Origin: Flavobacterium sp. MedPE-SWcel
GTDB lineage: Bacteria; Bacteroidota; Bacteroidia; Flavobacteriales; Flavobacteriaceae
Length of the DNA: 64,000 bases
NCBI GenBank assembly: GCA_001874325.1
Contig: MPCW01000001.1
Location: 1-64,000 of the forward strand
Direction of reading: 5' to 3'
The notes below the pieces were generated by a model that did no database searches, was not told where the DNA came from, and saw only the letters and a list, made by a program, of their open reading frames with translations. The translations under genes and the position numbers were made by a program. Below, in pieces: positions 1-59,443 of the stretch; position 1 is the stretch's first letter; every line of letters begins with the position of its first letter.

Positions 1-177
1 TTTAAATACATTATAAATAATATTTTAATAAAAACATGTTTTTTTGTTACAAAACAACCCCTAAAACTGGCAATTGTTTTAAAACTATATTTTTTTTAAA
101 ACATTGTTAATTAGTTAACAAATCTTAAAATATAACAATACATAAATCTAAAATCACTGTACTACACCTATACAAAA

Positions 178-16678: not shown

Positions 16679-17119
16679 ATGAGGCAATGCTTTAAACATA
16701 AACACGGCTATATTGGTATCGATGAAGAAAACTTATACCTTAGCCAATCTAACGATTGGTCAAGAATTCTTGATATTAAAAACGATCTCTCTAGACCTAA
16801 AAAAAGAAGTATTACAAAACAAATCTTATTAGCTCTCATTACTTGCAGTATAACAGCCATTACAAGATTATATTTATCAGAACTTATACAAACAATTATT
16901 TTCTGTATAGCTTGTTTAGTTATAGTTATTGAAATACTCAGGTCTTATAAAAAACAAACCTTAATACCAATTGATCAAATTAAATCTATAAAACCTTATA
17001 AGAAAAACGGAGTAAAAATTCATTTTCAAGATATCGAAAATAGACATCACTATAAAAAAATTAAGGGTGTTGAAGAAAAGGGAATTAACATCTTAATAAA
17101 CCTTCCTTTTAAACTGTAG
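16679..17119 (+). CDS. Membrane protein, tandem paralogue 2 of 3
   Basis: A 146-aa protein of the same unnamed family as its two neighbours. N-terminal FKHKHGYIGIDEENLYLSQ and SNDWSRIL are nearly the same as in paralogue 3, including a run of identical DNA near the start. Two membrane helices (about residues 46-66 and 70-86) differ almost completely between the copies. The C-terminal part IPIDQIKSIKPYKKNG matches paralogue 3 (IPLDKIESIEPYRKNG), followed by KIHF and a basic/acidic helix ending EKGINILINL. No catalytic motif is visible. A role in the inner membrane is all that can be said. Confidence 0.75.
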   Translation: MRQCFKHKHGYIGIDEENLYLSQSNDWSRILDIKNDLSRPKKRSITKQILLALITCSITAITRLYLSELIQTIIFCIACLVIVIEILRSYKKQTLIPIDQIKSIKPYKKNGVKIHFQDIENRHHYKKIKGVEEKGINILINLPFKL

Positions 17120-17131
17120 CTCTATAATATT

Positions 17132-17590
17132 ATGAAACAATGCTTTAAACATAAACACGGCTATATTAGTATAGATCAAGAAAAACTATATCTCAGCCAA
17201 TCTAACGATTGGTCAACTATTCTTAAGATCAATAGAGACCTTTCAAATTCAAAATATATAACTAAAGATACACGAAAAACACTTTTATCTTTCTTAAACT
17301 ATTTACCTGTCCTTTTTTTAGCGATATGGTATGGTTTTGATTTTTGGACAATGATTATAGCTCTAAACATTATAGCACTATTATCTTGGGCTATATTTTT
17401 AATTTTAGACGATAAGGCTTCAAAAAAACAAGCTATGATACCTCTTGATAAAATTGAATCTATAGAACCTTACAGAAAAAATGGTGTTATCATTAACTAC
17501 TTAAACAGGTATGACGAATCTGATGAGAAAATCATAAAAAAAGTAGAAAAAAAGGGAATTGAACACCTATTAGGCTATAGAATAGATTAA
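17132..17590 (+). CDS. Membrane protein, tandem paralogue 3 of 3
   Basis: A 152-aa protein, the last of the triplicate. It shares FKHKHGYISIDQEKLYLSQ and SNDWST with paralogue 2 and has a two-helix membrane hairpin (about residues 52-68 and 72-91, with FLAIWYGFDFWTMIIALN). The C-terminal module is IPLDKIESIEPYRKNGVIIN, then KKVEKKGIEHLLGY. The gap to gene 2 is 12 bases. The conserved ends and divergent membrane hairpin suggest that the soluble module is the constant functional part. Function unknown. After it comes a 99-base gap with no clear terminator. Confidence 0.75.
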   Translation: MKQCFKHKHGYISIDQEKLYLSQSNDWSTILKINRDLSNSKYITKDTRKTLLSFLNYLPVLFLAIWYGFDFWTMIIALNIIALLSWAIFLILDDKASKKQAMIPLDKIESIEPYRKNGVIINYLNRYDESDEKIIKKVEKKGIEHLLGYRID

Positions 17591-39753: not shown

Positions 39754-41574
39754 ATGCTTAATCGTAAAGTTTCAAAAGTTAGGTTATTTTTCCGAAATAA
39801 CGTACGCCATATTGAAACACTCTTCTTTATAATCAAAAGTCTACTATCCAAAAGACATTTTATTTACGTTTCGGCCGTACTTGTAGCTATATCTACAGCT
39901 TTTGCTGTAATTATACTAAAAAGTTTTGCGCATAGTGTTTTTAACTTTGCTAACTATATTAATGGTTACCTAAAGTTCCCTTACATAAATAGTATATTAC
40001 CTTTTGCTGGTATTTTACTTACCATATTTGTTGTACGTAAATTACTGAAAGGTAAAATCGAAAAAGGAAGTTCGCGTATACTATATGCTGTTGCAAAAAG
40101 AGGTGGTATTATGCCTAAAAGGCAAATGTATGCCCAAATTATAACAAGTTCATTAACTGTTGGTCTTGGAGGATCAGCAGGACTTGAGTCTCCTATTACT
40201 ATAACGGGAGCTGCTTTTGGGTCTAACTTTGCCCAAAAATATAAGCTATCTAAAAAAGATAGAATCTTATTACTTGCTTGTGGAGTTGCTGCTGGTATTG
40301 CTGCGGCTTTTAATGCTCCTATTGCAGGAGTACTTTTTGCTATAGAAGTAGTACTTACCGATGTAAGTATTACTGCTTTTATACCTATTATGATATCGGC
40401 TGCTACAGGTGCAATAGTTTCTACTATAGTACTTAATGAGGAAGTTCTTTTATCTTTCAAGCAACAACACCCTTTTGACTACCATAATATACCTTATTAT
40501 ATTTTACTTGGTTTATTGGCTGGTTTTATATCAATATATCATACAAGAAAATTTCAAAAAGTTGAAGCTTATTTCGATCGCCTTAAAAAAGGTGAGTATA
40601 AAAAAGGATTATATGGTGCTTCATTATTAGCTGTACTTATATTTTTCTCTCCTAGCCTATTTGGTGAAGGATATGAAAGTATTAAAATGTTGGCTAACTC
40701 TCATCCTGAAGAATTACTTGACAATACACTTTTAGAAAGTTTTAAAGATAACGGATGGGTATTACTAGCATTTGCAGGAGTAACTATGTTATTAAAGGTT
40801 TTTGCTACAGGTTTAACACTATCCAGTGGTGGTAACGGTGGTAATTTTGCACCATCGCTATTTGTTGGGTCTTATCTTGGTTTTTTTGTAGCAAAATCAT
40901 TACATATGGTAGGTTTAGCTAAAGATTTACCCGTTAGTAGTTTTACCATTGTGGGTATGGCAGGGTTACTTAGTGGATTATTTCATGCACCACTTACAGC
41001 TATCTTCCTTATCGGAGAGATTACAGGAGGCTATAACCTTATGGTACCACTTATGATCGTTTCTTCTATTAGTTTTGCTGTATCAAATCAGTTTGAAAAT
41101 CATTCCATGGATGTAAAACATCTTGCTGATAAAGGAGAGGTATTTACTGGTAATAAAGATAAAAACATTCTATCGAGTATCGATTTACTAGCTGTAGTTA
41201 CAACTAATGTTAGAACTATAGAAACATCTCACGAACCTGATGATGTTATTAACCTACTCTCAACTACTCGACAAAGTATATTTGCAGTTGTAGATGAAAG
41301 AAATCGACTTGTAGGAATCGTTGATTTTGATTCAATAAGACACATGGCGTTTAGTCCGTTTAAAATTAAGTATAGTAAACTTGAAGAAATCATGTCGTTA
41401 CCAAAAGAAACAGCATGCCTTGAAGACTCTATAGAAATGATTATGAATAAATTTGAAACTGCTCAAACTGATTATTTACCAATACTGAAAGATGAAAAAT
41501 ATTATGGACTAATATTTAAAGCTAAGATATTAGAAAACTATAGGCAAAAATTAAAAGACATGGTAATAGAGTAA
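39754..41574 (+). CDS. ClC-type chloride channel/antiporter with CBS domains
   Basis: A 606-aa membrane protein. A hydrophobic N-terminal helix pair precedes the ClC core. The ion-path motifs are SLTVGLGGSAGLESP (the gating glutamate is the E of GLESP), AAFNAPIAGVLFAIEVVL and SSGGNGGNFAPSLFVG. The C-terminal region from about residue 470 carries two CBS domains (INLLSTTRQSIFAVVDERNR and SIEMIMNKFETAQTDYLPIL). This is the common architecture of bacterial ClC proteins, which exchange Cl- for H+ or act as channels; which of the two cannot be told from sequence. It faces tal across a shared hairpin. Confidence 0.93.
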   Translation: MLNRKVSKVRLFFRNNVRHIETLFFIIKSLLSKRHFIYVSAVLVAISTAFAVIILKSFAHSVFNFANYINGYLKFPYINSILPFAGILLTIFVVRKLLKGKIEKGSSRILYAVAKRGGIMPKRQMYAQIITSSLTVGLGGSAGLESPITITGAAFGSNFAQKYKLSKKDRILLLACGVAAGIAAAFNAPIAGVLFAIEVVLTDVSITAFIPIMISAATGAIVSTIVLNEEVLLSFKQQHPFDYHNIPYYILLGLLAGFISIYHTRKFQKVEAYFDRLKKGEYKKGLYGASLLAVLIFFSPSLFGEGYESIKMLANSHPEELLDNTLLESFKDNGWVLLAFAGVTMLLKVFATGLTLSSGGNGGNFAPSLFVGSYLGFFVAKSLHMVGLAKDLPVSSFTIVGMAGLLSGLFHAPLTAIFLIGEITGGYNLMVPLMIVSSISFAVSNQFENHSMDVKHLADKGEVFTGNKDKNILSSIDLLAVVTTNVRTIETSHEPDDVINLLSTTRQSIFAVVDERNRLVGIVDFDSIRHMAFSPFKIKYSKLEEIMSLPKETACLEDSIEMIMNKFETAQTDYLPILKDEKYYGLIFKAKILENYRQKLKDMVIE

Positions 41575-57004: not shown

Positions 57005-57583
57005 TTATACTTTTTCCTTCAAAAGGTTCAAAAAAATATTATTCTCTTCTGTTGTTACATTTTTCTTATCTATAATAATTTTATAAATCATCCCCTTCAC
57101 TGTTAATAGATAGTACTCTTGATATTCCTTAAACTTCTCTATTAACTCCCATCTAACATCTATAATAAAATCATGTCTATCATATTTTATACCTATATCA
57201 TCTACTGTAATATGAATTTCATTACCGAGCTTTAAAACATTTTTCGAAACTTCATTAGTTAATTTATAAGCACGTTTTTTTTGATTAAATAAAATATAGA
57301 ATAAGTAGGTGGTTAAAACTATTATGACAACTCCTATAGCTTCGTTTAAATGCCAATTAGAATAGTTTTCAATATGTATAACTTGATCTTTATTTTCTAT
57401 TTCAGCTTTACTCTTCTTAGTATATTCTTTATAATTAGAAAGTCCCCAAAGTAAAAAACCAATACCAACAATATAGGCTATAGAGAAATAAATGGCTGCT
57501 TTTTTTAAAAAAAGATTCCATTTAAATTCATTCTGCTTTAATAAGCTTTTACACGCATTTTTATCTATTATTTCTAGTTTCAT
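57005..57583 (-). CDS. YcxB-like membrane protein
   Basis: A 192-aa protein with two membrane helices (about residues 31-49 and 82-101) and a C-terminal YcxB-like beta domain (IHITVDDIGIKYDRHDFIID, then RWELIEKFKEYQEYYLLTV). The layout, an N-terminal soluble piece, two helices and a beta domain, resembles the tandem paralogues at 16-17.6 kb in shape but not in sequence. It sits 51 bases after the coiled-coil gene and 18 before the GyrI-like gene. Function unknown. Confidence 0.75.
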   Translation of the reverse strand: MKLEIIDKNACKSLLKQNEFKWNLFLKKAAIYFSIAYIVGIGFLLWGLSNYKEYTKKSKAEIENKDQVIHIENYSNWHLNEAIGVVIIVLTTYLFYILFNQKKRAYKLTNEVSKNVLKLGNEIHITVDDIGIKYDRHDFIIDVRWELIEKFKEYQEYYLLTVKGMIYKIIIDKKNVTTEENNIFLNLLKEKV

Positions 57584-57634
57584 ATTGATACCAATATAAT
57601 TAAATAATGATCTTTAACATGGATAAATTATTAC

Positions 57635-58168
57635 CTAACCACTAATAGCAATTAAAGTACCGCCAACTAAGACACCGCCTAACCCCCATAATAATTTACC
57701 CCAAAAAGATCTATTTTTTTCTTTTTTAATATTATTCTCGGCATCATTAAGTTTGCCTTTTGCTTTATCAAGTTGCTCTAATAAAACTTCGTTTTCTTTT
57801 CTGTAGCGTTCATTACTGTCTATACTCTGTTTTAGAGACATTTCATAACCAGCTTCTAAAGTTTCTATGTTATTAACTAAACCATCAAATTTTAAACTTA
57901 TGGAATCGACAATAGCACTAACTTTTTCATACTCCTTACAATCGGTATATAACTGATTATAAAGTTTTACAGTTTGTAGGTAATCATCTACACCAGGTTT
58001 ATTTATTACATATAATGTATCTACATTAACCTTTAATAAATAAGGTTTATACCTTATAATTGTATCTATATTTTTTTTCGCACCAAGATTTGGTAATTTA
58101 ACTATATCTTGAGAAAACGAATAGCTACTACAAGATATAATGATAATAAAAAGTAAGTTCTTTATCAT
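57635..58168 (-). CDS. Exported coiled-coil protein with C-terminal membrane segment (spanin-like candidate)
   Basis: A 177-aa protein. The N-terminal signal (KNLLFIIIISCSSYSFSQ) contains IISC, a possible lipobox at Cys13, or it may be cut after FSQ. The middle is polar. From about residue 105 to 150 a strong heptad pattern runs (NERYRKENEVLLEQLDKAKG). The end is a glycine-rich membrane helix (LLWGLGGVLVGGTLIAISG). I recognise no family. The order amidase, membrane coiled coil, this protein resembles endolysin/Rz/Rz1 phage lysis sets, with this protein as the outer partner; the C-terminal helix is unusual for an outer spanin. The spacing to the upstream gene is 12 bases. Function is a hypothesis only. 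Confidence 0.7.
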   Translation of the reverse strand: MIKNLLFIIIISCSSYSFSQDIVKLPNLGAKKNIDTIIRYKPYLLKVNVDTLYVINKPGVDDYLQTVKLYNQLYTDCKEYEKVSAIVDSISLKFDGLVNNIETLEAGYEMSLKQSIDSNERYRKENEVLLEQLDKAKGKLNDAENNIKKEKNRSFWGKLLWGLGGVLVGGTLIAISG

Positions 58169-58180
58169 GTTTTGTTTCCT

Positions 58181-58534
58181 TTAGTTAGGGTTTTCTATTT
58201 TATCAGGGTATCTATCTAACTTTTCCTTTATATCATGTAAGGAGTTTTGAGCTTCTCTCAATTCACTATTAATAGATCGTGAAAGCTGTGAGTTTTCTTG
58301 TTTAATAGTTTCTAAATCCCTTAATAACTGTTTGTTTAACTGAATAATAGAATCAATATATTCATTTCGCTCATCTATCAATGTTATAGAGGAGTCTATT
58401 TGGGTTTTAGCTTCAGATATATTGTCAATTGCCTCGTTAAGATTATCAGGCATTTTGAAAAAAGTATTTAGACAAATAATAAGAATTACTATTATTAGTA
58501 TTAACGACAAATATTTATCTATAAAATTTTTCAT
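58181..58534 (-). CDS. Inner-membrane anchored coiled-coil protein (Rz-like candidate)
   Basis: A 117-aa protein with an uncleaved N-terminal membrane anchor (residues 8-26, LSLILIIVILIICLNTFF) and a long periplasmic coiled coil (residues about 33-110: NLNEAIDNISEAKTQID, KQLLRDLETIKQENSQLS). This is the shape of an Rz i-spanin, which bridges inner and outer membrane in phage lysis; it is equally the shape of many small bitopic proteins. It lies 10 bases after the amidase gene and 12 before the next, a tight three-gene unit. No sequence family recognised. Confidence 0.72.
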   Translation of the reverse strand: MKNFIDKYLSLILIIVILIICLNTFFKMPDNLNEAIDNISEAKTQIDSSITLIDERNEYIDSIIQLNKQLLRDLETIKQENSQLSRSINSELREAQNSLHDIKEKLDRYPDKIENPN

Positions 58535-58544
58535 TTAATTCTAT

Positions 58545-59174
58545 TTAGTTTATTCCTAAGTATTTTAATATCCCCTTATATGCGTGCCATGCAAACTCTT
58601 TTTGAAACTCTGGATTTTTTAAGTGCTGGTAATCATCCCAATTATCAAAAAATAGGCATTCCAATAAAACGGCAGGACATTTAGTCTTTCTCAATACATA
58701 AAAATCTGACTCTTTATCTAAATCACCATCCGAAAAATCAAACCTTAATCTTAAATGTAATTTTTCGTACATCTTTTTCACCTCTTCCCCTATATTAGAG
58801 GCAAGGTCATCACTCTTGGTTGTACCTCTTGTTGTAAAAATTGAAAAACCTGAAGCATTATGATTTCTTGAAGCATTAGAATGTACAGAAATAAAAATAG
58901 TATTTGAACTATCAAAAGCATTTGCTACAGATACTCTATAGCGTAATGATATATCTCTAGAATCAGTAGCTTTAACGGTTGTTATTACATTTAGCTCTGG
59001 ATGAGCTTTAAGGTATATTTCAATAAGCCCCCCAATTTGTCTATTAATAACTCCCTCATAGGCTACTTCTCCATTAGGAAACTTAAACATTTTAGAAGGT
59101 GCTGTAGTATAGTTACCATTTTTATCAATACCTCCGTGACCGAAATCTAAAATAACATTAGTAACATTTTTCAT
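58545..59174 (-). CDS. N-acetylmuramoyl-L-alanine amidase, no signal peptide (endolysin-like)
   Basis: A 209-aa zinc amidase of the Amidase_3 fold, which cuts the bond between N-acetylmuramic acid and the peptide stem. The zinc ligands and catalytic residue are visible: His13 (DFGHGGIDKNG), Glu40 (NGEVAYEGVINRQ), His98 (FISVHSNAS) and Glu172 (PAVLLECLFFDN). There is no signal peptide or cell-wall-binding domain, unlike chromosomal AmiC-type enzymes. That is what phage endolysins look like, since they rely on a holin or other route to reach the wall. It leads a tight three-gene unit on the minus strand. Enzymatic class is well supported; lysis function is inferred. Confidence 0.88.
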   Translation of the reverse strand: MKNVTNVILDFGHGGIDKNGNYTTAPSKMFKFPNGEVAYEGVINRQIGGLIEIYLKAHPELNVITTVKATDSRDISLRYRVSVANAFDSSNTIFISVHSNASRNHNASGFSIFTTRGTTKSDDLASNIGEEVKKMYEKLHLRLRFDFSDGDLDKESDFYVLRKTKCPAVLLECLFFDNWDDYQHLKNPEFQKEFAWHAYKGILKYLGIN

Positions 59175-59213
59175 TTTGAGAATAGTTTAGTTGGATTATT
59201 TTGCTCAATAAAA

Positions 59214-59233
59214 TTATACTTACGCAAGTATAA
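59214..59233. promoter_or_regulatory. Palindrome upstream of the amidase gene
   Basis: TTATACTT-ACGC-AAGTATAA is a perfect 8-bp inverted repeat with a 4-base centre, 40 bases before the amidase start codon. Its place and size suit a repressor operator, but no regulator is known for it. Confidence 0.5.
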
Positions 59234-59328
59234 GCACTTTATTTACAAACCACAAAATATTAATATAATCATTGTAGTCAATTTAATATTATATAAAACT
59301 CTTTAGACTTGATAATATTATGTCAGGA

Positions 59329-59360
59329 TTGTATTGTTTTTTTATCAAAAAACAATACAA
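59329..59360. repeat. 14-bp perfect inverted repeat between amidase and uvrA
   Basis: TTGTATTGTTTTTT and AAAAAACAATACAA are exact complements around TATC. It lies about 30 bases upstream of the uvrA promoter and is not placed after any stop codon, so it is not an obvious terminator. Confidence 0.6.
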
Positions 59361-59391
59361 ATTCTTTAACATTTTATTGCCTTTTACCTTC

Positions 59392-59423
59392 TTGAAAAAT
59401 CTCCCTAAAAATCAGTAACTTTG
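59392..59423 (+). promoter_or_regulatory. Promoter of uvrA
   Basis: TTG (59392-59394), a 21-base spacer and TAACTTTG (59416-59423) match the Bacteroidota consensus; the start codon is 21 bases downstream. No SOS operator was recognised. Confidence 0.65.
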
Positions 59424-59443
59424 CGTTTTGCACAAAAATTACT

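Follow-up and report, generated by a model that had tools for sequence, protein, structure and literature searches.

Three genes with intact open reading frames lie close together on the minus strand of the 64-kb stretch of Flavobacterium DNA analysed here (the window) and encode products of 209 aa (58545–59174), 117 aa (58181–58534) and 177 aa (57635–58168). The gaps between them are 10 and 12 bases, which confirms from the ORFs the tight three-gene unit described in an earlier note on this DNA. The trio is flanked by uvrA (59444, plus strand) on one side and, on the other, by minus-strand genes for a 192-aa two-TM protein (57005–57583), a GyrI-like protein and lon. The 192-aa gene, a possible fourth member, follows the trio after 51 bases and the GyrI-like gene follows after a further 18 bases; the same-strand run may extend beyond the trio into these two. 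Searched against Pfam, the 192-aa protein gave a YcxB-like match only (E = 0.47). The divergent intergenic region between uvrA and the 209-aa gene (59175–59443) contains an exact dyad, TATACTTNNNNAAGTATA (also given as TATACTTACGCAAGTATA), at 59215–59232, about 40 bases before the start of the 209-aa gene, together with a perfect inverted repeat of 14 bp at 59329–59360, both of which are candidate operator sites.

The 209-aa product matched Amidase_3 in Pfam (PF01520, E = 5.8e-31) and the endolysin family phrog_435 in PHROG (E = 8.4e-35), and is annotated here as a phage-type N-acetylmuramoyl-L-alanine amidase. The metal ligands H13, E40 and H98 and the catalytic E172 are all present and are invariant in an alignment with ten relatives, and E40, H98 and E172 align with their equivalents in amidases of solved structure. 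No signal peptide was predicted from the sequence of the enzyme, as the earlier note had stated, and no SAR segment either. The best phage relatives were Maribacter phage Panino (62% identity) and Cellulophaga phages phi17:2 and phi4:1 (54%), phi38:1 (52%) and Calle (51%). In a 60-row tree the amidase fell in a supported clade (97/98) of crAss-like/Callevirus type, distinct from the Winovirus one, whose other members are 16 phage rows and a second chromosomal copy (genome G219, locus L019); this copy is 70% identical and the next to branch. Intact ligands and catalytic Glu, no signal peptide and nearest kin among phages are combined in one Amidase_3 protein, as in endolysins, and kinship with phage endolysins is supported. 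Only two weaker matches were found in 199 other Flavobacterium genomes, and the matches listed in a search of the genome contigs with a profile of the amidase alignment were unrelated amidases. PADLOC assigned the amidase to no defence family and gave weak coil matches only for the 117- and 177-aa proteins.

Other stand-alone amidases were observed on chromosomes. The 70% identical copy (L019:8165–11774) lies before two glycine-rich collagen-like ORFs that have no Pfam matches, in a region with C5-methylase-like and Vsr-like endonuclease genes, a coiled-coil pair and phage genes being absent. At five further loci on Flavobacteriaceae chromosomes (L021–L024 and L031) a different amidase is followed by a lipoprotein of about 155 aa with the motif [FY]DQYSYQ and a protein of about 107–118 aa, accompanied at L021 and L023 by an additional protein of about 95 aa and a three-TM protein of about 107 aa. 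These genes are a conserved chromosomal set, and the members scanned had no Pfam match. The same amidase type directly precedes a patatin-like protein in two genera (L025 and L026), which places a wall hydrolase beside a likely lipase.

The 117-aa protein has a short basic N-terminus and a hydrophobic segment (peak KD 2.97, window from residue 9; TM at about residues 8–25), followed by a predicted periplasmic coiled coil. On sequence prediction, it thus has the N-terminal inner-membrane anchor and periplasmic coil of an inner spanin. It matched the Rz-like family phrog_89 weakly (E = 0.0013), about 15–40 fold better than controls in which the TM segment was kept and the tail scrambled or reversed (E = 0.02–0.06); with such control values, the match is weak support for an Rz-like protein. 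The Rz-like matches are mostly a generic coiled-coil signal, and no homologue of the protein was found in IMG/VR. The search against phage spanin profiles, which the earlier note had proposed, therefore revealed no family homology.

The 177-aa protein has a hydrophobic leader and ends in a hydrophobic stretch rich in glycine (peak 2.04, window 159–175). Its signal peptide is predicted to span residues 1–19 (58112–58168, minus strand), with cleavage before Q20. Although the sequence IISC13 fits the lipobox consensus, the leader, MIKNLLFIIIISCSSYSFS|QDI, conforms as well to the Q-rule of Bacteroidetes, by which signal peptidase I (SPI) cleaves before Gln (PMC10367356), and closely resembles MIKNGYLFFLLFCSSLSFSQ, the leader encoded by a nearby gene (52714) whose product is not a lipoprotein. 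In the other flagged proteins of the window the lipobox Cys is at residue 17–26, compared with 13 here, and a lipoprotein leader would be only 12 residues long, which is very short. The lipobox is consequently doubtful and the protein is probably not a lipoprotein. Single-sequence AlphaFold2 modelling gave one long helix at residues 60–172, with low confidence before residue 74. The hydrophobic C-terminal helix, SFWGKLLWGLGGVLVGGTLIAISG, covers residues 154–177 (57638–57709, minus strand), and C77 is the single periplasmic Cys. A match to phrog_937 (E = 8.6e-4) was weak and coil-driven. Members of phrog_937 ('hemolysin') and phrog_689 ('holin') have a coiled coil and a C-terminal helix, a layout like that of the 177-aa C-terminal part; judging from XhlA, they are not known to have a signal peptide. 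No homologue of the 177-aa protein was found in IMG/VR, 50,697 phage records, 72,556 plasmids, 300 other Flavobacteriaceae genomes or 399 other Flavobacterium genomes. Two weak matches of the small proteins within the genus were rejected, as they fall within longer ORFs and seem to be due to the coils.

The closest counterpart of this arrangement was seen in Winovirus-type phages. In Flavobacterium phage lotta8-1 (Winoviridae, Pippivirus; L042), gp50 (TM and coil), gp51 (amidase), gp52 (N-anchored coil) and gp53 are consecutive, and gp53 consists of a leader, a coil or long helix and a glycine-rich hydrophobic C-terminus. The gp50–gp53 set was found in seven IMG/VR contigs (L272–L278), one being the entry of lotta8-1 itself, and in 7/7 the gp52 and gp53 genes overlap out of frame by 80–83 nt; an 'overlapped' layout has been described for two-component spanins (PMC6139136). 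L278 has a CHAP enzyme (PF05257, E = 2.2e-8) in the place of the amidase but retains gp52/gp53, indicating that the pair is tied to the lysis enzyme and not to a particular fold. The gp52 of L275 matched the Rz-like phrog_89 with E = 1.4e-6. The gp53 leader has no Cys and ends in an invariant S-Q, column 69 holds an invariant Cys, and the protein was modelled as one helix (32–141). Hence gp53 and the 177-aa protein share a long single helix, a Cys near the helix start and a Q-rule leader, and the C-terminal helix of the latter has the place and character of that in gp53.

The cassettes of lotta8-1, lotta8-2 and pippi8-1 (gp50–gp53) and of L272–L278 are like the window unit in the order of hydrolase, N-anchored coil and exported long helix. 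The last two genes are annotated only as hypothetical in these phages. The cassettes differ from the window unit in that their last two genes overlap by about 80 nt instead of being separated by 12 bases, in that a TM and coil gene, missing from the window unit, precedes the endolysin, and in that the amidases belong to different clades. Compared with gp52/gp53, the 117- and 177-aa proteins gave an hhalign probability of 2%, and in HMM comparison they scored lower than shuffled controls. As there is no sequence homology, the match is one of architecture and order only, and the pair may be said to work like gp52/gp53 but not to belong to their family. Still, the same layout in these phages means that the C-terminal helix of the 177-aa protein is not unique, which weakens the earlier objection that it does not fit an outer spanin.

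As for other lysis systems, lambda Rz/Rz1 and T4 PseT.3/PseT.2 resemble the window pair in their place beside the endolysin, in the N-anchored periplasmic coil and in having Cys in the partner only. The window partner, however, ends in a hydrophobic helix and is probably no lipoprotein, which makes the pair unlike textbook spanins. The endolysins of Panino, phi38:1, phi17:2 and Calle, 51–62% identical to the window amidase and of the same clade, have neighbour genes unlike the 117/177 pair. The proposed likeness to a phage lysis module therefore stood for the kinship of the enzyme and the gene order, but not for a canonical outer-spanin lipoprotein, given a leader in line with the SPI Q-rule and phage counterparts whose leaders lack Cys.

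Several observations bear on how the genes came to this place. GC content is 0.27–0.32 for the genes of the trio and 0.26–0.29 in a profile over 57200–59000, compared with 0.33–0.37 for the flanking genes, which fits acquisition; since the 192-aa gene has a GC content of 0.245, the acquired stretch may span about 57.0–59.4 kb. A comparison across relatives, suggested in the earlier note, showed that the content of the interval varies, but the trio was not found in the relatives checked and is a singleton among the genomes examined: in two close relatives the gyrI–uvrA interval holds a 218-aa gene (G333) or other genes (G324). In several other relatives uvrA directly follows a ClcA-like gene, which in the window is located at 39754–41574; the distance of about 18 kb to uvrA (59444) indicates that the segment was rearranged. 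No phage structural or integrase gene was seen on reading the window translations and no tRNA was found in the 64-kb window, in agreement with the earlier statement that phage genes do not surround the unit. Two phage families were sought in the 83.8%-complete genome, sheath and Terminase_6C, and both were absent, although the part that is missing may hold a phage or particle system. The singleton distribution, the variable interval and the absence of these two families together support recent acquisition rather than a conserved host function. No holin gene was recognised among the translations at 56.5–59.4 kb by ORFs, Pfam and PHROG, and no linked cargo or regulator was seen beside the unit. 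Elsewhere in the window (16679–17590), two adjacent, similar membrane proteins of 146 and 152 aa, starting with MRQCFKHKHGYIGID and MKQCFKHKHGYISID, look like a tandem duplication.

On these data we consider it somewhat probable that the trio is an acquired phage-type lysis cassette, now standing alone in the Flavobacterium chromosome. That the genes are decaying and functionless, all that is left of a prophage or of a phage that had not integrated, is a real possibility, if an unlikely one: the singleton status, with the 177-aa gene missing from the 399 and 300 genomes mentioned above, the unit's lack of a holin-like gene, the absence of sheath and Terminase_6C and the variable insertion site would all agree with it, while the three frames are intact and closely spaced and the active site is complete, which speaks against decay, even if a recent arrival would look alike. 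Quite unlikely, in our opinion, is a domesticated system for protein or vesicle release or programmed lysis. For phage-type lysis genes among host genes there is precedent in the T10SS cassettes of Serratia and Yersinia entomophaga, which lie outside a phage (PMC10847048), and in the DLP12 lysis module, which modulates vesicles in E. coli (PMC7918800). The unit likewise has host genes on both sides and stands alone between housekeeping genes, and the second chromosomal amidase of the clade (L019) is a stand-alone gene too, yet the unit differs from both systems in having no recognised holin, canonical spanin pair, known cargo or conservation across species, and no regulator is linked to it.

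Coiled-coil activators of Amidase_3 enzymes, such as EnvC and NlpD, are established, and the trio could accordingly have no role in lysis and serve wall remodelling, the two coiled-coil proteins being unrelated envelope proteins by which the amidase is anchored or activated. The missing sequence link to phage spanins would suit such a set; we nevertheless regard it as improbable, for the amidase differs from cell-division amidases in lacking an export signal, it falls in a phage clade, and the gene order matches phage cassettes. Equally doubtful is that the 177-aa protein is a unimolecular spanin (u-spanin), that is, an outer-membrane protein lipidated at C13 that also spans the inner membrane by a C-terminal TM segment, although the lipobox-like IISC and the hydrophobic C-terminal segment resemble one and a lipoprotein with a C-terminal TM follows related amidases in other flavophages (L053, L058, L061). 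The Q-rule leader, the shortness of a 12-residue lipoprotein leader and the adjoining inner-spanin-like gene count against this, as does C77: Cys is carried by 507 of 528 two-component spanins, and a periplasmic Cys by 0 of 58 u-spanins (PMC6139136). With C77 the 117/177 pair has the at least one periplasmic Cys of two-component spanins, which argues for a two-component partner. Of the unimolecular element suggested in the earlier note, the C-terminal hydrophobic segment was borne out, whereas the Cys is at odds with it.

Under the favoured reading of an acquired lysis cassette, the amidase, with its intact active site and no signal peptide, would be made in the cytoplasm and wait there for a breach of the inner membrane, made either by a holin or by the 177-aa protein with its hydrophobic C-terminal helix, and would then cut peptidoglycan. 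Signal peptidase I would export the 177-aa protein with its hydrophobic C-terminus, and the periplasmic coiled coils of this protein and of the N-anchored 117-aa protein might pair, C77 perhaps linking dimers, to help disrupt the envelope in a spanin-like manner. The 177-aa protein would probably be an unorthodox outer partner. Lysis is a plausible reading of the unit, and domestication by the host is possible. A bolder proposal, which we put forward tentatively as it is rather unlikely, is that phages of Bacteroidota have a kind of spanin pair not recognised so far, in which a Q-rule-exported long-helix protein, its glycine-rich hydrophobic C-terminus acting on a membrane, replaces the outer lipoprotein, and that the window unit is a host-owned chromosomal version that would do the job of the holin as well.

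A recognisable spanin was missing in 91 of 677 phages of Gram-negative hosts in one survey (PMC6139136), and outer-membrane breakage by Bacteroidota phages has been little studied. Winovirus-type phages, as our comparison suggests, have a conserved gene pair that, apart from the missing lipobox, bears the hallmarks of spanins. We know of no lysis-release module in the host group of the unit, and the chromosomal unit, if expressed, would be a candidate for such a module.
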